Positions 32,539 to 55,009 of a DNA stretch of 64,000 nucleotides are shown piece by piece (within the stretch, counting starts at the first letter, position 1; every line of letters begins with the position of its first letter). The DNA lies in assembly GCA_021108395.1 (NCBI GenBank), contig JAIOQZ010000024.1, forward strand, positions 1-64,000. The letters run 5' to 3'. Source of the DNA: Candidatus Cloacimonadota bacterium (GTDB lineage: Bacteria > Cloacimonadota > Cloacimonadia > Cloacimonadales > JAIOQZ01). The notes below the pieces were generated by a model that saw nothing but the letters and a program-made list of their open reading frames with translations, was not told the origin of the DNA and did not search any database. A program made the translations under genes and the position numbers.

Positions 32539-33354
32539 TCAGTCGAACAGAGCGCGTGTCTTGCCGCACAGATTGTGAATCTGCTGCACAGAATCGCGGC
32601 TGAGAACCTGCTCCTCGCCGCTGACAAGGATAGCGAGAATCTGGTTGAGGTTGTCAAGTGACTCGGCGTAGAACTCCTTTTCCTTCACGCGCTCGCTGGA
32701 AATCGTTTCGTAGTTGACGATGAGCTGGTTGAGCGTACCGATCTCGAAGAGAATCGAAGTGACCGCCGGGTCGAACTCGCCATCGAGCAGCAGAAACGTG
32801 AGGTTGTGCAGAGCTTCTGTCCAGCCACCGACCTGCAACAGCATGAAGATGTCATACTCGCCGGCGCGGTGAAGCTCCGTCACCACATTCTGGCGCTCTT
32901 CTTCGAGCACCACTTCGAGCTCATCCCACTCGTTGTTTTCGAGCAACCTGGTAAGCTTGTCTGTCAGGGGATTTATCTGGTCCTCGATACCGAGCATATC
33001 GGCATAGAACATCATCCCCTCGGCAATGTCTTTGAGACGCTGCTGGTCTCTGGCCTGAGTACTGAAGATGGCGTCTGCGGTGAGAGCGCCAAGCTGATAG
33101 GCCTGCTTGAACGAACTGCCCTCGACTTTCTCGAATGACTGCGGCACAGCCTTCGCATAGTCGGCTGTCTCGACATTCTCGAGCTTGGCGAACACTTGAT
33201 GGAAAGTGGGCAGCGGGAAGAAAATGAACTGTGGCTCATTTGGGTATTCCAGCGCCTCGACGGCGGGCTGTTCTTCCTGTTGTTTGCCGCAGGCTGCAAT
33301 TCCGGCCAGCAGGGCAATCGCCACCAATGTGATAATCCAGACACGAATGCGCAT
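32539..33354 (-). CDS. Hypothetical lipoprotein
   Basis: 271 residues with GGAGG before the ATG. The signal peptide ends in a good lipobox, AGIAACGKQ, so lipidation at Cys22 is expected. The mature part is acidic and helical (VFAKLENVETADYAKAVPQS, LLENNEWDELEVVLEEERQNVV, LHNLTFLLLDGEFDPAV). No family is recognised. It lies 55 bases downstream of the big ABC fusion gene and in the same direction, so co-expression is possible. Confidence 0.75.
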   Translation of the reverse strand: MRIRVWIITLVAIALLAGIAACGKQQEEQPAVEALEYPNEPQFIFFPLPTFHQVFAKLENVETADYAKAVPQSFEKVEGSSFKQAYQLGALTADAIFSTQARDQQRLKDIAEGMMFYADMLGIEDQINPLTDKLTRLLENNEWDELEVVLEEERQNVVTELHRAGEYDIFMLLQVGGWTEALHNLTFLLLDGEFDPAVTSILFEIGTLNQLIVNYETISSERVKEKEFYAESLDNLNQILAILVSGEEQVLSRDSVQQIHNLCGKTRALFD

Positions 33355-33409: not shown

Positions 33410-36400
33410 TCACTCGCGATAAAAGAACTTGAGCTTGATGTATGTGGCGGTAATCATGAGCATCAGGTAGAATGCGATTACCGTCAGGTTGAACTCCCAG
33501 GTGACCCATTCGCCGCCCCACAGGCGTTTGCCGCTGGAGAGAAACACGTTCCCGCCACGATTGAGAGACCGCCCGTCCATGATGCCCACCACGGTATAGA
33601 TCGTCTCGTTGACGAAATCATCGCGGGGGTAGCTGGCCAGCATTCTGTCCTGCTGCTCTCGCAGGTCGTTGCGCATGGCGTTGCGCTCCTGCGTGCCAAT
33701 CAGTCCCTGAACATGCAAACGCTGAAGTTCATCGCGCTTTTTGTCAAGCACAATACGCACCCGCGCCGGCTTGGTATATTGTCCATAGGCGGTGTACATA
33801 CCCTCGAACAGCCAGCGGGCGGGAATCACCTGCACGATTTCAGGGATGGGATTGCCCTTGATGAACGTCAGGTCGCGGTTCATGCGCTCGTATTGAATGA
33901 CGGCGCCACCAAAAATTATCTGCGGGATGAGCATCAGCGGCAATATATTGATAATCGCCTTGGTGTTGTGAATGAAGCAACTGATGAGCAGTCCCAGCGT
34001 GAAACCGATGGCAGCCGAAGCGAACAGATAGGCCACGGTGATGACGAACATGCCGCGTATTTCGAGAATGAGGGAACTGGCCAGAACGTACAGCAGCACC
34101 TGCACCGCCGCGAACACGCCAAGCGACAACAGCTTCGACAACAGATAGTAGGTCATCTTCAGGTTGAGCATCTTTTCGCGCAATATCGTGCGCCGCTCCG
34201 CGAGTATCTCCTCGATGCTGTTGGACAGCCCCAGAAAAATGAACACGATTACGGAAATGAAGAGATAAACGCCCAGGTTCACGTTCTCGTTGAACGTGTA
34301 GGGGCCATCGGTGGGCGCCAGCCGCAGGATGAACGCCACCAGAAACGCCAGCAGGGGCGCCTCGGCAAAGGTGATGAACATGTTGGTGCGATTGCGCAGC
34401 TTCATCAGCAGGTTACGCCGTATGAAAGTGAGCAGCTGCATCGCATGAGCCGCCAGGCTCATCTTGCGGCGACGCACCCGCGTGGCGCTGAGGTTCGGCT
34501 CGCTGCGCTGGGGAACCTGCATGAGGTCGAACAGCATCTTGCGTTTGAATTTATCGCGCCAGTAAACGGGCGGAAACCGCCGTTTGGCCACCACGTTCTC
34601 TTCCATCTGGATATACACGGGGTCACCCTGAGCGTCATACTCGGGGTATTCAACCACCTCGTACATGAATTCCGGCATGCGCAGGTCGCGCTTGCGAATG
34701 ATGGCCTCGGCGCGCACGCTCATCTCGGCGGCCTCGCTGCTGAAATAGTCGAACGTTTTGCTCGTCTCGCCGAAGAACACCTGCTTGCCGCCCCTGTCCA
34801 TCAGCAGTACGCGGTCAAACTGCTCGAAGATGTCGGGGCTGGGCTGATGGATGGTGGTGATGACGATCTTGCCCTGCCGCGAAAGTGTTTTGAGCATGCG
34901 CACGATTTGCTCGGAGTCGGTGGATGACAGGCCAGAGGTGGGTTCGTCGCAGATGATGATGGTGGGCTCGAACAGCAGCTCGAGGGCGATGTTGAGCCGC
35001 TTGCGCTCACCGCCGGACAGACGGCTGCCTTTCTCGTCGCCCACCACGAGGTCGCGGCGCTGGCTGAGATTGATTTGCGTCAGGATGTTGTCGATCTTCT
35101 GGCGCAGGTGCCCCAGACTGATGGAGGAAAGCTGCAACCGTCCACGGTACAGCAGGTTTTCATACACTGTGAGCGAGCCGAACAGGAGGTCTTCCTGCGG
35201 CACATGACCGATGTATTGAGTGAAATGGCTGAGGTTGCTATAGAAACTCTTGTTGTCGATCATCACTGTGCCGTAGGTGGGGATGAGTTCGCCGGCAATC
35301 GACTTGAGCAGTGTGCTCTTGCCGCAGCCGCTCTGCCCCATGATGGCCAGCATCTCTCCCTTGCCCACCTCGAACGAGATGCCGTCAAGCGCCAGAACGC
35401 CGTCACGGAAGTAGTGTTTGATATCGACAACCTGGAGCTGATCGACCTCGAACGGCGCCTCGATGAGATCGAGGAAGCTGTTGAGGCGATAATTACGCCC
35501 TGCGAGGGTGATGATGTCTGTGTTGAGCGCCAGCGGCGTCGGCGCGGTGACGGGCTGGCCGTTGAGCTGTATCTCCCACCCCTGGCGCGGTGGCTGCAGC
35601 TCATAGGCGTCGTCACGGAACTCAATCGAGGCGACGGTCTGGGCGCTCTCCTGGGGAGCGAGGCGGAAGTAGTCGTTGCCGGCGGTGATGTAGAGATTGC
35701 GCGGACGGAGATTGCTAACGCCAATCTCGGCGCGGCGGCGGATGACATCCAGCAGCGAGAACGGTTCGTAACCCTTTATCTGGAGCATGTCGTCGTAATA
35801 GACAAACTGTTCCTTGCCATGTGGCAGCAGGCGTCCGTTGCGATAGACGGAACTCTGCTGCACCAGAATCGAGTAGCGGTTGGCGTTGTTGACAATATGG
35901 AACTTATAGTCGAGGCTCTTGAACCCGATTGTATCGTGCACCTGGCGGGCGTGATGAATCTTGCGCAGGTGGTCGATCTCGAAGGTAAGCGCGCCCACCG
36001 TGAGCGAGCCATTCTCTGGAAAGGTGTAGAGACGGTTGGGCAACAGCTCGAACTCGCCGATCTTCGCGCCGGTTTCGCGTCCGGCGCCAATGAACACAAA
36101 GCGGTCAACGACCATGAGCAGCAGCTCGTGCTCCTGAATGCGGCGATCGCGGAAGCGCAGGTCACAGTCGGCGGCGCGGCCGGCGACAACGTAGTCGCGG
36201 AAGATGCTGCGCTCGGCGTGGCAGAAGTAGCGAAAGCCCTTGATCGAGACCGGCTCGGACTTGGCATACTCGATGGCGTCGATGACCGCCATGAAACCCT
36301 CGGTTTCGAGGTTCATCTTTTTGCTCAGCTCGAGAATCTTGGTCACTTCGGAGGCGGAGAACTCGTCGTCGCTGTTGGCCAGCACGATGAGCGAGAGCAG

Positions 36401-36670
36401 GATGCGTATCTTGTCCAGCGTGATGAGATTCTTGTTGAGAAAACTTAGCACCTCGTCCAGTGACTGGTCGAGCTCGTTGATGTGGCGAATCTTGGCTTCC
36501 CACGAGATGTCGTCGCTCTTGAAGAGGTTCTCGAGCAGCGTGTAGAGGATATTCACTTCGTAGGGGTCAATCTGCGGCCCCGAGCGCAGCACCAGCACAT
36601 ACAGACTGGTGATCATCTCGATGATCTTCTCGCGATCACGCGTGTCGGGGCGCAGCGGAGCGTGTTTCAT
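33410..36670 (-). CDS. ABCG-type transporter fused to TerB-like and FHA-like N-terminal domains
   Basis: 1086 residues. About 1-150: helical TerB-like segment (LVLRSGPQIDPYEVNILYTL, VLANSDDEFSASEVTKILEL). About 150-420: beta-rich region with FHA-like repeats (VYRNGRLLPHGKEQFVYYDD; IQLNGQPVTAPTPLALNTDI). About 430-650: ATPase with Walker A GQSGCGKST, signature LSGGERKRLNI, Walker B IIICDEPTSGL and the switch His in TTIHQPSPDIFEQFD, which is ABCG/White-like. About 750-1086: membrane domain with about six helices (MFITFAEAPLLAFLVAFIL onward). Nucleotide-binding and membrane halves are on one chain, so a dimer would transport; substrate unknown. FHA suggests control by phosphopeptides from a Ser/Thr kinase (inference). 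Confidence 0.85.
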   Translation of the reverse strand: MKHAPLRPDTRDREKIIEMITSLYVLVLRSGPQIDPYEVNILYTLLENLFKSDDISWEAKIRHINELDQSLDEVLSFLNKNLITLDKIRILLSLIVLANSDDEFSASEVTKILELSKKMNLETEGFMAVIDAIEYAKSEPVSIKGFRYFCHAERSIFRDYVVAGRAADCDLRFRDRRIQEHELLLMVVDRFVFIGAGRETGAKIGEFELLPNRLYTFPENGSLTVGALTFEIDHLRKIHHARQVHDTIGFKSLDYKFHIVNNANRYSILVQQSSVYRNGRLLPHGKEQFVYYDDMLQIKGYEPFSLLDVIRRRAEIGVSNLRPRNLYITAGNDYFRLAPQESAQTVASIEFRDDAYELQPPRQGWEIQLNGQPVTAPTPLALNTDIITLAGRNYRLNSFLDLIEAPFEVDQLQVVDIKHYFRDGVLALDGISFEVGKGEMLAIMGQSGCGKSTLLKSIAGELIPTYGTVMIDNKSFYSNLSHFTQYIGHVPQEDLLFGSLTVYENLLYRGRLQLSSISLGHLRQKIDNILTQINLSQRRDLVVGDEKGSRLSGGERKRLNIALELLFEPTIIICDEPTSGLSSTDSEQIVRMLKTLSRQGKIVITTIHQPSPDIFEQFDRVLLMDRGGKQVFFGETSKTFDYFSSEAAEMSVRAEAIIRKRDLRMPEFMYEVVEYPEYDAQGDPVYIQMEENVVAKRRFPPVYWRDKFKRKMLFDLMQVPQRSEPNLSATRVRRRKMSLAAHAMQLLTFIRRNLLMKLRNRTNMFITFAEAPLLAFLVAFILRLAPTDGPYTFNENVNLGVYLFISVIVFIFLGLSNSIEEILAERRTILREKMLNLKMTYYLLSKLLSLGVFAAVQVLLYVLASSLILEIRGMFVITVAYLFASAAIGFTLGLLISCFIHNTKAIINILPLMLIPQIIFGGAVIQYERMNRDLTFIKGNPIPEIVQVIPARWLFEGMYTAYGQYTKPARVRIVLDKKRDELQRLHVQGLIGTQERNAMRNDLREQQDRMLASYPRDDFVNETIYTVVGIMDGRSLNRGGNVFLSSGKRLWGGEWVTWEFNLTVIAFYLMLMITATYIKLKFFYRE

Positions 36671-36721: not shown

Positions 36722-37210
36722 CTACTCACTGCCCGAAGCGACAAAGATGATTACGATAATGGCTGTTCCCAAAAGGCCGCCGCCTATTGCTGCGCCTCGG
36801 TTTTTGCTTTTACTCCTGTCGATATATCCAGTCCTGTATCCCATTGCATCCACTTCATCGGGAATGTAGGCCGGTACTGTCCCGGATGCGGCAACCGCAA
36901 TGATTGCGGTGCCGATCAAACCAAGCAGAAAACCACTTGCTACGCCACCAATGAACCAACCTGAAGAAGAATGCTGCTCACCTGCGGCTCTTCCAAGTTG
37001 ATAGGATGTGTTGAAATCCTTTCTCGCAACGGTCACGGTCTGTGGTTCGACCGGCTGCACTTCCGGCTCGATACGCTGGGCTTGCTTGTTGCAGTCAATC
37101 AGCCTGCTGATGCGCTCCCGCAGGTTCATCTCGATGGAGACAGGGACGGCTGCAATCTCAACGATCATCACCAAGAATAAAGCAATACATACAAGCTTCA
37201 TGGGTTTCAT
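36722..37210 (-). CDS. Hypothetical exported membrane protein with glycine-rich helices
   Basis: 162 residues from ATG at 37210 (AAGGAG seven bases upstream); the longer reading to 37258 overlaps rlpA. A signal segment (LVCIALFLVMIVEIAAVPV) precedes a polar stretch rich in Glu, Pro and Val (IEPEVQPVEPQTVTV). Two Gly/Ala-rich hydrophobic helices follow (WFIGGVASGFLLGLIGTAII; AAIGGGLLGTAIIVIIFVAS). No function is recognised. It may be transcribed with rlpA. Confidence 0.7.
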   Translation of the reverse strand: MKPMKLVCIALFLVMIVEIAAVPVSIEMNLRERISRLIDCNKQAQRIEPEVQPVEPQTVTVARKDFNTSYQLGRAAGEQHSSSGWFIGGVASGFLLGLIGTAIIAVAASGTVPAYIPDEVDAMGYRTGYIDRSKSKNRGAAIGGGLLGTAIIVIIFVASGSE

Positions 37211-37254
37211 TTTCGCTCCTTTTTTTATTGGGTAGTAATCTCTGTCATTTATCC

Positions 37255-37809
37255 TCACTGCTCGATCACCTGCACGCGCACCTCCATCACGCCCTTTGCC
37301 ACCAGGCCGATGGCGCGGGCAGCGGCCAGCGAGAGGTCGATGTCGCGGCCAGGGATGAACGGCCCGCGGTCGTTCACGCGCACTACCACCGAGTTGCCGT
37401 TATCGGGGTTGGTCACCCGCAGCAGGGTGCCGAAGGCCAGGCTCTTGTGAGCGCAGGTCATCTTGTACATATCGAAGGTCTCGCCATTGCTGGTGGTGCG
37501 GCCGTGGAACTTGTGGGCATAGTAACTGGCAACCCAAATCTCGCCTTCGGCGCCGCCGTCTGCGAAGTCGCCGCTGTGGGGCGGCGCCCAGATTTCGTTG
37601 AGCGTCGTATCTGGCGGGGTTGTCTCGTGGGTAGATGGTGTAAGCTCTGCCGCCGGTTCGGGCGTTGCGACCGGCTCCGGCTGCTGTGTGCCATAGTAGC
37701 GGGAGCGCGGGCTCACCTCGTCATCGGGCGTGTAATATCTCTGCGCCGGAGCGCAGGCCATCAGCAGCAGCAGAACCACGAGCAGCGACAGCAGCGGGTG
37801 GCGCTTCAT
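37255..37809 (-). CDS. rlpA: RlpA-like lipoprotein (double-psi beta-barrel lytic transglycosylase type)
   Basis: 184 residues. Lipobox LLLMACAP gives a lipoprotein with Cys19. A Pro/Thr/Glu-rich linker (~30-85) leads to the double-psi barrel: [47 protein letters not shown] and [15 protein letters not shown]. The conserved RVNDRGPF and DLS motifs are complete. No SPOR domain follows. Family members bind or cut stem-less peptidoglycan. The ATG overlaps the stop of the receiver gene (ATGA), so they are translationally coupled. Confidence 0.9.
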
Positions 37810-38537
37810 GGCTGGACGTCGTCCCCGCCGTCGCCCCCAACTTCGTCCCCGTTGTCGTCCTCGTTGAAGACAATCATCCTGGACTGGCTGGTGTAGTTCT
37901 CGAAGCTCATGGTTGTGGCCTGTTTGAACTTGTCCAGAATATCGGACATGCGCTTCATGGCGTTGTCGATCTTGGACAGATAGCCCCTCTGGTGATCATC
38001 GATGGATTTGTTTTTCTCGACCGAGATAAGAAACATATCGAGATTGCCCTTCATAATCATCATCGGCTGGTTCATCTCATGGTTGGCGGTAACCGCCATG
38101 GCCAGCGCCATGTTTTTCTTTTCCACCTCGATCATGCGGTCATAGTATTCCTTGAGGCTCAGGTAGGAACGCACCCGCATCTTGACGATGTAATCCTGCA
38201 CCGGCTTGGTGAGTATATCGTCCACGCCGGTGGCCAGCATACGCTCACGCGCCTCTTCGTTGTTGCGATCGATGGCGGTGATGAAAATAACAGGCGTGTA
38301 ACGATCATTCTTCTTGATGCGGCGGCAGGTTTCATAGCCATCCATCACCGGCATCATGATGTCCAGCAGCACCAGGTCGGGCATGAACTCCTCGAATATT
38401 TCGAGGCCCTCGACACCGTCGTTGGCCGTGCGAGTCTCATACATGCCGTTCTCGAGCAACAGGGCTTCGAGAAAGTGCCGGTTGATGCGGTCGTTTTCTA
38501 TGATGAGAATCTTCTTCTTGCGAGTTTCTTCCTTCAT
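37806..38537 (-). CDS. Response-regulator receiver joined to an isolated histidine-kinase H-box domain
   Basis: 243 residues from ATG at 38537 (GGGGGAG upstream). A receiver domain at 1-125 has [17 protein letters not shown], the phospho-acceptor Asp in [14 protein letters not shown], Thr in VIFITA and Lys in ILTKPV. A HisKA-like dimerisation helix follows with [18 protein letters not shown], where His is the expected phosphosite. No HATPase domain follows; the chain ends in an acidic Asp/Gly-rich tail. It may be a phospho-relay scaffold fed by another kinase. It is coupled to rlpA, pointing to envelope control (inference). Confidence 0.85.
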
Positions 38538-38749
38538 TACTCCCCCACAACCGAGTTTGGGAAGAAGATAACGAAACGTTCCCATTGTCGTCAACGTGTT
38601 TTTCATTCGACGCTCATCGTTACATGTCCAGACTGCATCGCACAGTGAAATATGGATGAAGCCGAAGTCGCCTTCTCGGTTGATAAAATGCTTTACAAAC
38701 TACCGGCTTGAGCATTTCGTGACGGTAAATCGAAGTAAAGGAGCCAGGC

Positions 38750-49189: not shown

Positions 49190-52100
49190 CTATTCTTCCG
49201 GAAGCGTCAACTCGTCGGTTGATTCCTCGTCCGAAACTGCTTTCTCAGTAAACACAGGGATAGCCACGAAGGCGGTTGTGCCCTCGTTTACTTTGCTTTG
49301 CAGCCAGATACGCCCGCCATGCAACTCCACGATACGCTGGCATGTGGCCAGACCGATGCCCAATCCGCTCGAACGATACTCGACGAATCCAGACTTGTGC
49401 GACCATAAGTCGTTCAGTTCATAGAACTTCTTGAATACGTTTTCCTGCTCGTGTTCCGGGATGCCGATACCGTTGTCCTGAACATAGACTACCAGGCTCT
49501 TGTTTCCATCGATTTCTTCGGTGGGAAACGAAGACAGGCGCACCCCGATGACGATGGTGCCAAAGTCTTTGGTGAAACGGATAGCGTTGTGAACCAGGTT
49601 ATACAGCAGCAGGTCGAACGCCTCCCAGTTGGCCTGAATCCGCGGCAGAGTCTCCGGCATTTCCAGGCTGATTCGCATCTTGCGCTCGGCTGAGATGATC
49701 TCGGCGCGATTGAATATTTCTTCGAGGATAGGGCGCACATCGGTGGGCTCACGGTTCAGCGTGGTTATCATCGAGTACTTGTTCAGCGTAACGATGTCCC
49801 TGGTGGTCGAGAGCAGTTTCTTCACGCTCTCTTCCAGTTTACCGAGGTTCTTGCCCACCTCGGTCTGATCGCCCTCGGTCTTCTTCCGCAGGCGGTTCAC
49901 ATAGCCCTGAAGGGTAACCAGCGGCGTGTTCAGCTCGTGACTGACGATGGCGATGAAGTTATCCTTCACCAGGTCGAGCGTTTGCAGCTCGAGGTTCTTT
50001 CGCACCAGCATCTCGTACTGCCGCGCATTCTTCAGAGCCACCGAGAACTCGAGGAGCAGCATGTCCATGAAATCGGTGTTGAGGTGTGTTTCCTCCTGGC
50101 TCGAGTTGAAGTTGTCGAGATAGAGAAAACCGTGCAGGCCGTCGTCAACGAAGATGGGCGCGCAGTAGATGGAGTGAAGCTGGTAATCCTGAACGCTGAT
50201 GGAGTTCTTGAATGTGTTGTCGAGCATGGCGTTCAGCGTATAGATTGATTCCCCGGTAGTCTGCACTTCGCTCAACAGCGTCTTGCTGACGTTGATAAAC
50301 TCTCGCATCAGTTGCTTCTGCTCGTCCATCGCCACCTGATAGACATAGTTGCCAAATGTGTCTTTCTTGATGAGAAACCCGCGTGAAAACCCGGTGAAGT
50401 CTATGGCGAAGCTGACGATCTCGTGTTCGAGCTTGCCCACGTCATGAATACTGAAGAACTCCTGCGAAGCTGTCATGATCTTCTGGAGTAACTGCATTCG
50501 GCGGCTGAGATCACCAAACTCTTTGATGCGCATAAGAATGGAGGTAAGATGCAATCGCAGTACGCGGGCAATCCGCAGCTCGGGGCCGCGAAACGGCATT
50601 TCGCCCAGGTCAGAGAGCAACAGACAGCCAACTTTGGTGGAACGTATCTTGAGCGGAACAAACAGGAAATGCTTGCCTTGCATTTCCTTTGAACGTATTT
50701 TGTTCATTTCTACGCACTTCTCGATTTCGGAAAACACTTCGGGAACATAGAGGTCGTCTTCGCTCATGTTGTGCAGCAGGAAAGATTTACCGTGTCTCTT
50801 GAACTCGTCGTAGAGCAGAACGGAGTAGGCATCGGGCGCCAGCAGGTTGTGAACGATTTTATCGATGAAAAATTTCATCCGTCCAATCTCGTTGAGCTTG
50901 AAAAGATCGTAAAGCTGATTCTGCCATTCATCTTTCTGGTATCTTGTTCTTGGCGTGACGGTTACACTGACCATTTCTTTCACGTCGCCGTCAAGCTGAT
51001 GCCTGTGCCGCAGCAATTTGCGGTCGTGCTCGGGAATCTTGCGGCAAGCCGCCTCGACACGTTCCCGCAGCTTCGCATGATACTCACTGGTCATTTTCTC
51101 CTGCCGCAGGCTCATATAAATCTGTGTCAGCCGCACATAAATATCGATTTCGAGTATGAAAAACTTCTGTTTCTTCACCGAGTCGATCATGGCCAGCAGG
51201 CTTCGCAGCACACGCCGCAGAGGCACGCTCCGATCGAGCAGTTCGAGGTCGCAGCGGGCAAGTTGGGCGACAATGTCCCAGTACTTGAAATTATAGGTCT
51301 TGATGAGTTGCTCGGCGCGTTCGAGATGGGCCATGCCAGTTTCCAGATTGCCCAGGGCAACGTAGCAACGCACAATATCGATGTGCAGAATGGCCTGTGC
51401 ATATGCGCTTCGATTCCGTTGGGCGTATTCCATCGCCTGCTCGAAGTGCTGGATAGCCGTTTCGGGGTCTTCGGTGTGCAGCGACATCAGACCCAGAATC
51501 TGGTAATAGAACTCCTCCTCGCGCTGCTCGACAAAATTGATCTGAGTGTTCCGCTGCATCAGAGCGACAACCTCCTCCACATTGCCGATGTGAAACAGGT
51601 AATAGAACCATGTTTTCACCAGCGGCGTAAGCGCCTTAACGCGGCCTTCGATTAGTTCGGGAGCGTGTTTCTTGATAAAAGCGTAGTAGCGGTCGAAGCC
51701 GCGAATCTTGATGAGCGTGAGCGCCAGGTTGTTGCGCACAGATTGCAGGAAGTCGGTGCCGCCCATCTCGACGATGATGGTCTCGGCTTTGTTCAGATAC
51801 GACTCGGCTTTGCTGAACCGCCCCTGCTTGATGTACGCCTCACCGAAATTGATGAATGCCAGTACCTGTCCGCGTTTCTGATCAACGCGGTCGCAGAGAT
51901 CGAAGGCCTTCTGGAAGTAGATGAAGGCGGTCTTTGTATCACCCTGGCGCAGGGCGATGTCGCCAATATTGTTATACACCAGGCCAAGTGAGCGCACATT
52001 GTTGACCTTCTCCCAGATTCGTTTGGCTTTCTGAAAATTCTTCTGCGCCTCCTCGATGGATTTCTCTGATATGTAGAGAAAGGCCAGATTGTTGTATAGA

Positions 52101-54694
52101 GAACCCAGACGGACAAGAAACGGGGTGTCGTCGTGCATGTCGAGCTGGCTCAGGGTGTCTTCGAGCAAGTTGATGGCGTCCTGCTGTCGGCCTTGCGCCG
52201 CCATAACCAGCGCCTTGCGATCGACATAGTTGACCAAGAGATCCGGCGACATCTTCAGCCCATCGAGCTTGCTCAGATAATTTTCTGCGGCCGGCAAGTC
52301 CTCCAGGCGATAGGCGTTCCAGACAAGATAGATGAGCGCCTCGATGCGCTGACGCCCCGTGATAGCTCTTTGCAGGGCCTTATCGAGCAATCGCTTGGCA
52401 CGGTGGTATTTGTCCAGCCCCATGTAGAGCGAGCCGCTCACAAAAAAGCGCTCGAAAATGTTTGGCAGGTTGCGAATCGAAGTGAGCAGCTTCAACGCCG
52501 TCTGGATGCTGCCGGTCAATTCTGCCTTCTCGCGGAACATCGTGAGATCGACCATTAACTCGGCGCCACTCACCTCCACCTTTTTTGAAAAATCAAGTTC
52601 GATGACCTTGCATATCTCTACGAAGGCTTCCTCCTGCCGGTACTGCTCGCTGTAGATATGGGCCAGCACGAGGGTATATTGACGCATCGAGGTGTTGTCA
52701 TCGGCCTGGCGGGCATTGCGCACCAGCCCAATTGCGATTTCCGGCAGAGTTATCTGCTTGTCTGCAAAGTAACTCAGCACGCGAAGCGATATTTCTTTCT
52801 GGGTTTCCGAGCCACTCTCCTTGAACAGACGCTTCTGCGCCTCGATGAAGGCGAAATGATAGAACTCTCCGGCTTTGCGCCAAATCTCCGTATTGAAAGC
52901 TTCATTGATGAGAAAAAACACCTCCTTCTCGTCAATGTCGAGAATGCTTTGCACCAGATGCTTCGAAAACGGCGTGAAGCAGCAGGCCAGCTGTTGTAAG
53001 GCACGATACCCCTTCTCAGAAAGATGACTCAGACGGTTGTAGATGGCGTTTTTGAGCTGGTCTGGCAACTCGTAATCGCTCCAGTCATAGTCAAAGTGAA
53101 ACTCGCGTCTGTGCCAGATGCGGTGCTTTTCGGTAAGGTCCACCAGAATCTCCTGGATGAACAACGGGATGCCGTTCGAGCGTCGCCACAGTTCCCTTGC
53201 GAACGCTTCCGACGCCTCCTGTCCCACCAGCTTGCCGATGTATTCTCGGGTCTGGTTCTCGCTGTAGGGCTCGATCTTGAACTGCACCGAGTGGATGAGG
53301 CCGCGCACTCTGCTGGGGTCGTCAACACTGATGATGATCAATACGCGCTTCTCGATCATCTCCTTCGAGATGAAGTTGACGAAATCGATGGTCTCACTGG
53401 TAAGGTTCTGTCCGGCGCGGATGATGAACACCAGCGGCTTGATTTCGGACAGGTGAAAGATGAATGAGCGCGCCGAGTTGAAGTCGAGGCCCAGCTCGCT
53501 GGCCGATTCCGACAAATCCTTCGCCTTTTCCTCCGACTCGAACAGGTATTTCTGGAATTTTTCTGAGATGTTGTCCAGGTCTTCCTGTAGTTGCCGGTTC
53601 TTCTTCACGTTGCTGTGAAATTCCTTTGCGAGGGCAAAGAAAGGGTCACGCTGAGTGGACGAGCAGGTGTAGTCGAAGACAAAGTTTTCGTCTGACAGCA
53701 GATGATAGCGAAACAGTGACAGCAGGTTGTCCTTGCCGATGCCCGATCCGCCGATGATGACGACCAGCTTGCCGTTGCCCTCATGAATGATGGGGACGAA
53801 ATCGAGAAGCTGATGCGAGTAGTCTTCGCGCACGAAGTAGCTGTGGAAACGAAGCGTGGTCACCGCAGAGCGTTTCTGGGAGAATGAGTATTTCTTGAGC
53901 TGTATGCGATTGATGTAGCCAATGATGCTCTCCACGTCGGGATAGCGGTCGGCCGGGTTCTTTTCCAGCAGCTTCAGGATGAGCTTTTCGAGCTGTGGCG
54001 GAATGTCCGGGTTGATTTCGTGGGGAAACTTGGGAAAGAAGTGCTGCTGGTTGCCGGCGATGAGCTTGTGAATCTGCTCGATGCTGAACGGGTGGGTGCC
54101 TGTGGTCAGCTTGTAGAGGGTAACGCCAAGCGAATAGTAATCGCTCTGGGGCACGGCGCCGACGCCGAGATAGATTTCCGGGGCGACGTATGGCAGGCTG
54201 CCGGAGATGGTCTGCTGGTTCTTTTGCACGTCTATCTTGGCAAACCCGAAGTCGAGCACCTTCACCTGCGGTTTGCCGCGAACAATGCGATACATGATGT
54301 TCTCAGGCTTGATGTCTTTATGAACCATGTCCTGAAGATGCAGTGCGTTGAGCGCGTAGCAGGTCTGCACGATAATATCGTAGAGCATCTCGATGTTGTA
54401 GGGCTTGAAGCGGTAGCTCGACAGCGTTTTGCCCTCATAGTAATCGCTGATGTAATAGATATGTTTGCCCATATTGCCAAAGTTCTGCACACTGAGCAGA
54501 TTGGGATGCTTGATCTGTGTGATGTGCAGCATATCTTCGGCGGAGAACTTCTCGTAAAACCGCTCGCTTTCGATTTTATGAAACAGTTTGAGCGCGTATA
54601 TCTTGCCCGTACGTGAGTCGCGCACTTTATACACCGTGGCCCACAGTCCGGTGCCCAGTCGCTCCAATACGTCGTACCGTGAATCGATAATCAT
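49190..54694 (-). CDS. Giant Ser/Thr-kinase - ATPase - TPR - GAF - histidine-kinase fusion
   Basis: 1834 residues from the ATG at 54694, with GGAGG upstream; the frame to 54772 adds leader. Order: Hanks-type kinase (~1-280) with GTGLWATVY, Lys36 in YALKLFH, HKDIKPEN, DFGFAK and YVAPE; an NTPase with Walker-A-like GGSGIGKDN (the usual Ser/Thr is Asp); TPR repeats (~650-1200); a GAF-like region (~1290-1560); HisKA with VSHELNTPLVTL (phospho-His about 1586); and HATPase with NLVHNAIRF, VQDNGIGIPEH and GLGIGLA. It combines phospho-Ser/Thr and phospho-His signalling, as in cyanobacterial and myxobacterial analogues. No receiver is fused. The nearest candidate partner is the receiver/H-box protein at 37806. 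Confidence 0.9.
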   Translation of the reverse strand: MIIDSRYDVLERLGTGLWATVYKVRDSRTGKIYALKLFHKIESERFYEKFSAEDMLHITQIKHPNLLSVQNFGNMGKHIYYISDYYEGKTLSSYRFKPYNIEMLYDIIVQTCYALNALHLQDMVHKDIKPENIMYRIVRGKPQVKVLDFGFAKIDVQKNQQTISGSLPYVAPEIYLGVGAVPQSDYYSLGVTLYKLTTGTHPFSIEQIHKLIAGNQQHFFPKFPHEINPDIPPQLEKLILKLLEKNPADRYPDVESIIGYINRIQLKKYSFSQKRSAVTTLRFHSYFVREDYSHQLLDFVPIIHEGNGKLVVIIGGSGIGKDNLLSLFRYHLLSDENFVFDYTCSSTQRDPFFALAKEFHSNVKKNRQLQEDLDNISEKFQKYLFESEEKAKDLSESASELGLDFNSARSFIFHLSEIKPLVFIIRAGQNLTSETIDFVNFISKEMIEKRVLIIISVDDPSRVRGLIHSVQFKIEPYSENQTREYIGKLVGQEASEAFARELWRRSNGIPLFIQEILVDLTEKHRIWHRREFHFDYDWSDYELPDQLKNAIYNRLSHLSEKGYRALQQLACCFTPFSKHLVQSILDIDEKEVFFLINEAFNTEIWRKAGEFYHFAFIEAQKRLFKESGSETQKEISLRVLSYFADKQITLPEIAIGLVRNARQADDNTSMRQYTLVLAHIYSEQYRQEEAFVEICKVIELDFSKKVEVSGAELMVDLTMFREKAELTGSIQTALKLLTSIRNLPNIFERFFVSGSLYMGLDKYHRAKRLLDKALQRAITGRQRIEALIYLVWNAYRLEDLPAAENYLSKLDGLKMSPDLLVNYVDRKALVMAAQGRQQDAINLLEDTLSQLDMHDDTPFLVRLGSLYNNLAFLYISEKSIEEAQKNFQKAKRIWEKVNNVRSLGLVYNNIGDIALRQGDTKTAFIYFQKAFDLCDRVDQKRGQVLAFINFGEAYIKQGRFSKAESYLNKAETIIVEMGGTDFLQSVRNNLALTLIKIRGFDRYYAFIKKHAPELIEGRVKALTPLVKTWFYYLFHIGNVEEVVALMQRNTQINFVEQREEEFYYQILGLMSLHTEDPETAIQHFEQAMEYAQRNRSAYAQAILHIDIVRCYVALGNLETGMAHLERAEQLIKTYNFKYWDIVAQLARCDLELLDRSVPLRRVLRSLLAMIDSVKKQKFFILEIDIYVRLTQIYMSLRQEKMTSEYHAKLRERVEAACRKIPEHDRKLLRHRHQLDGDVKEMVSVTVTPRTRYQKDEWQNQLYDLFKLNEIGRMKFFIDKIVHNLLAPDAYSVLLYDEFKRHGKSFLLHNMSEDDLYVPEVFSEIEKCVEMNKIRSKEMQGKHFLFVPLKIRSTKVGCLLLSDLGEMPFRGPELRIARVLRLHLTSILMRIKEFGDLSRRMQLLQKIMTASQEFFSIHDVGKLEHEIVSFAIDFTGFSRGFLIKKDTFGNYVYQVAMDEQKQLMREFINVSKTLLSEVQTTGESIYTLNAMLDNTFKNSISVQDYQLHSIYCAPIFVDDGLHGFLYLDNFNSSQEETHLNTDFMDMLLLEFSVALKNARQYEMLVRKNLELQTLDLVKDNFIAIVSHELNTPLVTLQGYVNRLRKKTEGDQTEVGKNLGKLEESVKKLLSTTRDIVTLNKYSMITTLNREPTDVRPILEEIFNRAEIISAERKMRISLEMPETLPRIQANWEAFDLLLYNLVHNAIRFTKDFGTIVIGVRLSSFPTEEIDGNKSLVVYVQDNGIGIPEHEQENVFKKFYELNDLWSHKSGFVEYRSSGLGIGLATCQRIVELHGGRIWLQSKVNEGTTAFVAIPVFTEKAVSDEESTDELTLPEE

Positions 54695-55009
54695 AGTTTC
54701 CTCCATAATACCAGTGACTATGTATGCAGGTGGGCTGAGGAATGTCAAGAACACTTCGCCCAACACAGACATACCCTCGGAAATTTTGCAAAAAAGGCGA
54801 CCCAGTTATTTTATTCAAAAGTCGATGCAAATTTGTCCTAACTTCGGAATTGATGTGTTAAAACACACCTGTATCGCTCAGTTTGAACAAATTTGCTATC
54901 GATTTGCTTTTGAAAAAGCAAACACAAAACGACAGACAGAGACGATGAGCAGGTTTCGCTTGCCAGGTTCTGCGCTCCGCATAGACTTTGCCAGAGCAGG
55001 AGGCGCGGT
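54695..55009. other. Divergent intergenic region between giant kinase and adenine deaminase
   Basis: 315 bases, AT-rich toward the deaminase side. It contains an eight-base AT-rich hairpin TTTGCTTT / AAAGCAAA (54903-54910, 54915-54922) and the AGGAGG of the deaminase (near 54998). I saw no purine-riboswitch-like core, tRNA or strong promoter match. Confidence 0.5.

Follow-up and report, generated by a model that had tools for sequence, protein, structure and literature searches.

The question raised by this locus is why an ABCG-type half transporter should carry a long extra N-terminus ahead of its ATPase, and whether this extension places the pump under the control of a protein kinase. The window, i.e. 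the whole stretch of DNA analysed, comprises 64000 nucleotides of contig JAIOQZ010000024.1 from a Candidatus Cloacimonadota bacterium. A preliminary description had proposed that TerB-like and FHA-like folds are fused there to an ABCG-type transporter, had called this fusion unusual and had suggested that transport may be phospho-controlled, as the window also encodes a Hanks kinase. The gene at 33410..36670 (-) is an open reading frame with an ATG start in the ORF list of the window and encodes a protein of 1086 amino acids, for which orthologs exist. Pfam places an ABC ATPase (ABC_tran, PF00005) at residues ~428–579 (34934..35389 (-)) with an E value of 1e-33. Its Walker A (GQSGCGKST), signature (LSGGERKRL) and Walker B (IIICDEPTSGL) motifs are intact, and the key residues of these motifs are invariant in an alignment of 27 relatives, as is the switch histidine H608, which lies just past the ABC_tran match. 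The ATPase is followed by an ABCG-type permease (residues 745–1086; 33413..34438 (-)), in which ABC2_membrane (PF01061) is matched at residues 745–933 with an E value of 3e-15. Hydropathy indicates five clear hydrophobic membrane segments, a probable sixth at ~846–870 (judged by eye) and a loop of ~135 residues (~925–1060) ahead of the last segment. An ATPase with Walker A, Walker B and signature motifs followed by ABC2_membrane in one chain is the arrangement of an ABCG-type ABC-2 half-transporter and, judged from its sequence, the product is such a half transporter with extra N-terminal domains.

The first of these extra domains is TerB-like. When residues 1–430 were searched alone against Pfam, TerB (PF05099) was matched at residues 20–126 (36293..36613 (-)) with an E value of 3.1e-4 and a score of 21.4 bits against a curated cut-off of 24.4. 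Protein scans of the window protein gave scores of 19.7–21.6 bits, under this cut-off, and a six-frame search of the genome gave 24.5 bits, barely above it, this being the sole TerB match in the genome. Orthologs exceed the cut-off with 25.9–26.5 bits (25.9 in ortholog L024 and 26.5 in ortholog L030) and a best E value of 5.5e-6. Single-sequence structure prediction returned an all-helical model of the TerB region at low confidence (mean pLDDT 49), with which Foldseek found noise only, and gave no confident model for residues 1–414 as a whole (mean pLDDT 32).

The TerB-like domain is followed by FHA domain 1 at residues ~160–226 (35993..36193 (-)), for which the Pfam match is weak in the window protein itself (E value 0.05), but strong in ortholog L024 (33.1 bits against a cut-off of 20.7; E value 7.8e-8). 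With matches taken at E values up to 1, the TerB model and the FHA model were each matched by 13 of 24 family members. In addition, the family region of FHA domain 1 aligned with authentic FHA domains with an hhalign score of 34.3, column-shuffled controls (n=20) reaching no more than 14.4. Module 3, at residues ~330–405 (35456..35683 (-)), also resembles FHA domains in this comparison (score 18.6; shuffled maximum 10.9), and partial Pfam FHA matches occur at this position in the relatives L017 and L034. Module 2, at residues ~250–320 (35711..35923 (-)), scored only 13.0 against FHA directly, which is noise level (shuffled maximum 14.1); profile comparison, however, shows it to be alike to module 3 (E value 1.3e-5). 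The two modules have in common a near-invariant pattern of Asn followed by Asp, N278/D294 in module 2, where both residues are near-invariant in the alignment, and N370/D385 in module 3, where N370 and N397 are invariant in 27/27 sequences. In our structural reading, this pattern would fit the C-terminal half of the FHA sandwich. We therefore restrict ourselves to the statement that the N-terminus has one FHA domain and two divergent modules that are probably FHA-like. Because it is conserved over its full length in orthologs of 44–55% identity, the N-terminus is neither a chance match nor a misread frame. No NCBIfam model covers it, and its alignment profiles found no significant match among PDB sequences. 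The domain reading of the preliminary description is thus upheld by Pfam, by TerB and FHA scores over the cut-offs in orthologs and by hhalign scores above those of shuffled controls.

These full-length orthologs occur across the order, and so does a second ortholog group with ~30–35% identity. When the N-terminus alone was used as the query, 51 of 125 phylum genomes gave a match, among them 32 of the 71 with good quality, and in most listed cases the match lay inside a frame of ~1050–1180 amino acids, i.e. of transporter length; at the thresholds used, the transporter was not found in genome G010. Such conservation indicates that the TerB–FHA–ABCG fusion is an old, phylum-wide family. Genome contigs scanned with the single transporter protein gave distant ATPases only, viral sequence scans gave ATPases only or nothing, and a plasmid search with the N-terminus gave no match; related fusions are, however, carried by plasmids, as described below. 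The literature collection that we searched contained no relevant report of TerB fused to ABC transporters. The fusion can consequently be called unusual with respect to the databases, in which no NCBIfam model describes it, but not within the phylum, and FHA–ABCG fusions were already known from Rv1747.

Only ~55 bp downstream of the transporter and on the same strand lies a gene for a lipoprotein of 271 amino acids (32539..33354 (-)), preceded by a GGAGGA-type ribosome site and encoding a signal peptide with a lipobox-type Cys22. This protein had no confident match in Pfam or NCBIfam. We followed it with a family profile built from an alignment of 17 proteins. The family is present in 72 of the 125 phylum genomes, namely in 49/51 genomes with the transporter compared with 23/74 without it (Fisher p 1.6e-14, without correction for kinship). 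In a comparison of 50 genomes, with gene ends estimated from match positions, 37 have the lipoprotein gene as a same-strand neighbour of the transporter gene, and as it lies downstream in 35 of these and upstream in 2, the association survives rearrangement. In the other 13, the two genes are on different contigs (11 genomes, some reflecting assembly fragmentation), are separated by a larger gap (one) or the lipoprotein is not matched (one). Against the PDB, the lipoprotein profile had one match, Listeria Lmo2184 (5joq; E value 3.6e-5), over positions 1–156 including the signal peptide.

Other genes also accompany the transporter. In several branches (L100–L106) its cluster includes small proteins with a cNMP-binding domain, one or two in number and ~140–170 amino acids long, one of which has a weak match to a bacteriocin-transport-associated family. 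Upstream of the transporter in the window, 36722–38606 (-) encodes a response regulator with a HisKA part, an RlpA-like DPBB protein and a 178-amino-acid protein of no known family, the gene ends overlapping, and these genes may possibly form one operon with the transporter. No other genome that was examined had relatives of the 178-amino-acid and DPBB genes in a cluster with the transporter.

Taken together, we consider it somewhat probable that the transporter is an envelope exporter working with a periplasmic lipoprotein, and that its N-terminus is a cytoplasmic docking or regulatory platform. Such a pump would sit in the inner membrane as a homodimer and would use ATP to carry its substrate from the cytoplasm to the periplasm; this substrate would be a component of the envelope, probably a lipid, a glycolipid or a small hydrophobic compound. 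The cytoplasmic N-terminus of ~410 residues, with its TerB-like and FHA-fold modules, may serve as a protein–protein docking platform which gates the pump or determines its location, presumably with no classical phosphothreonine reading in the majority of members. The lipoprotein from the adjacent gene would act with the pump in the periplasm, whether as an acceptor, an adaptor or a sensor, and may be in contact with the long external permease loop.

An alternative role for the N-terminus is the phospho-control put forward in the preliminary description, in which, as with Rv1747 and PknF, the Hanks kinase of the window would phosphorylate a partner or the pump itself and the FHA domain would read the phosphothreonine. 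The FHA fold is real and lies ahead of the ATPase as in Rv1747, which offers a precedent in that its operon contains the kinase gene pknF (PMC3908365). Phosphothreonine recognition by FHA1 of Rad53 involves five residues, G69, R70, S85, H88 and N107 (PMC5549992), and these positions were mapped via profile alignment onto FHA domain 1 of 27 sequences, the counts referring to this domain only since modules 2 and 3 were not mappable. Glycine is found in 24/27, serine in 8/27, arginine in merely 5/27, asparagine in 3/27 and histidine in 0/27, the histidine position being occupied by glutamate in 19/27 relatives. The window protein has kept the G–R pair, but has Q, E and T at the serine, histidine and asparagine positions, and thus lacks the full set. 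Across the 27 sequences, the residues of the FHA fold persist while those that read phosphothreonine degenerate. A Hanks kinase is indeed encoded in the window (49190..54772 (-)), one of two over the cut-off in this genome, as part of a 1860-amino-acid hybrid that also has AAA-like, TPR, GAF and histidine-kinase parts. Many phylum genomes likewise have kinases in frames of about this length (~1800–1870 amino acids). The kinase of the window lies 12.5 kb from the transporter, and no cognate Ser/Thr kinase gene is found in the operon of the latter. As Hanks kinases occur in 112/125 phylum genomes and in all 71 of good quality, with or without the transporter, which only 32 of these 71 possess, the presence of a kinase at 12.5 kb says nothing specific. 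Genome G039 has kinase and transporter on one contig ~130 kb apart, and among the positions listed, compared by eye, no closer pair was noted elsewhere. Linkage of the kinase to the transporter was rejected on these grounds, and with the phosphothreonine-reading residues mostly lost and the kinases universal in good-quality genomes and not seen linked to the transporter, phospho-controlled transport is not supported and appears improbable, though this particular protein might still bind phosphothreonine.

The TerB-like domain could instead be taken to place the pump in a tellurite or Ter-type stress response, with a role in metal sensing or export. The profile match, which exceeds the curated cut-off in relatives, speaks for this, whereas the domain gave the only TerB match in the genome and no other ter gene was recognized among the neighbours scanned. 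TerB-like folds also serve as helical modules in other contexts, and we regard a Ter-type role as very improbable. Unlikely, but to be taken more seriously, is the possibility that the lipoprotein belongs functionally to a cluster of DUF6754 and membrane proteins, its adjacency to the transporter reflecting shared regulation only. One family has DUF6754 and three more conserved genes behind the lipoprotein, which is kept there even by genomes without the transporter; in G010, for example, the cluster (L077, 7357–11600) consists of the lipoprotein, the DUF6754 protein and three proteins without a Pfam or NCBIfam match, and it is found in many genomes of that family. However, in the window genome and in the families f8, f12 and f13 the lipoprotein stays beside the transporter with DUF6754 not directly adjoining, and the DUF6754 genes of the window genome are on other contigs. 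Persistence of the lipoprotein without the transporter, together with the location of the two genes on different contigs in 11 genomes, means that the two are not obligate partners; we describe their association as strong but not exclusive.

Returning to the exporter with its docking platform and lipoprotein, we tentatively suggest that it represents an undescribed, phylum-wide envelope export module, in which a TerB–FHA-gated ABCG pump has a dedicated, unnamed lipoprotein partner, joined in some branches by soluble cNMP-binding proteins, and in which the FHA folds may be non-phospho docking modules; a version with TerB–ABCG and a lipoprotein may extend to Bacteroidota. FHA-fused ABCG exporters are relevant to mycobacterial envelope biology, where Rv1747 and the kinase PknF have been studied. 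The same kind of pump is found here in a little-studied anaerobic phylum with a TerB-like domain added, the phosphate-reading site largely lost and a lipoprotein paired with it, suggesting that pumps of this kind can use their FHA part for docking without phosphorylation and pointing to an uncharacterized lipoprotein family as a test object.

In comparison with known systems, the TerB family itself (PF05099) is matched over ~107 residues of the transporter, but here the TerB-like domain is joined to a transporter and no further Ter protein was recognized nearby. A similar TerB-containing arrangement is seen in the Parabacteroides plasmid transporter WP_005856192.1 (973 amino acids), which has 35% identity over the ATPase and permease, a TerB-like N-terminus (hhalign score of 31.7 for the first 140 residues compared with at most 19.1 in 60 shuffles) and a gene for a 276-amino-acid lipoprotein immediately downstream, although homology of this lipoprotein with our partner lipoprotein is not established, as 1/60 shuffles scored as high. 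In contrast with the Cloacimonadota protein, its N-terminus is shorter, no FHA domain was found by Pfam or hhalign, and the ~100 residues after the first 140 do not match the FHA region. Conversely, FHA–ABC fusions on Rhodococcus (P0005), Nostoc (P0004) and Nodularia plasmids had no TerB that we could find, and the Rhodococcus fusion differs further in having intact-looking FHA domains and a kinase gene next door. The closest known relative in kind is Rv1747 of Mycobacterium tuberculosis (FHA–FHA–ABCG), which, together with other FHA–ABCG fusions from Actinobacteria and Cyanobacteria, has one or more N-terminal FHA domains fused to an ABCG-type ATPase and permease and is a putative exporter of an envelope component. 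Unlike these, the Cloacimonadota transporter has a TerB-like domain before a degenerate FHA domain and two divergent modules, has mostly lost the phosphothreonine residues, and is partnered by the gene of a lipoprotein rather than that of a kinase.
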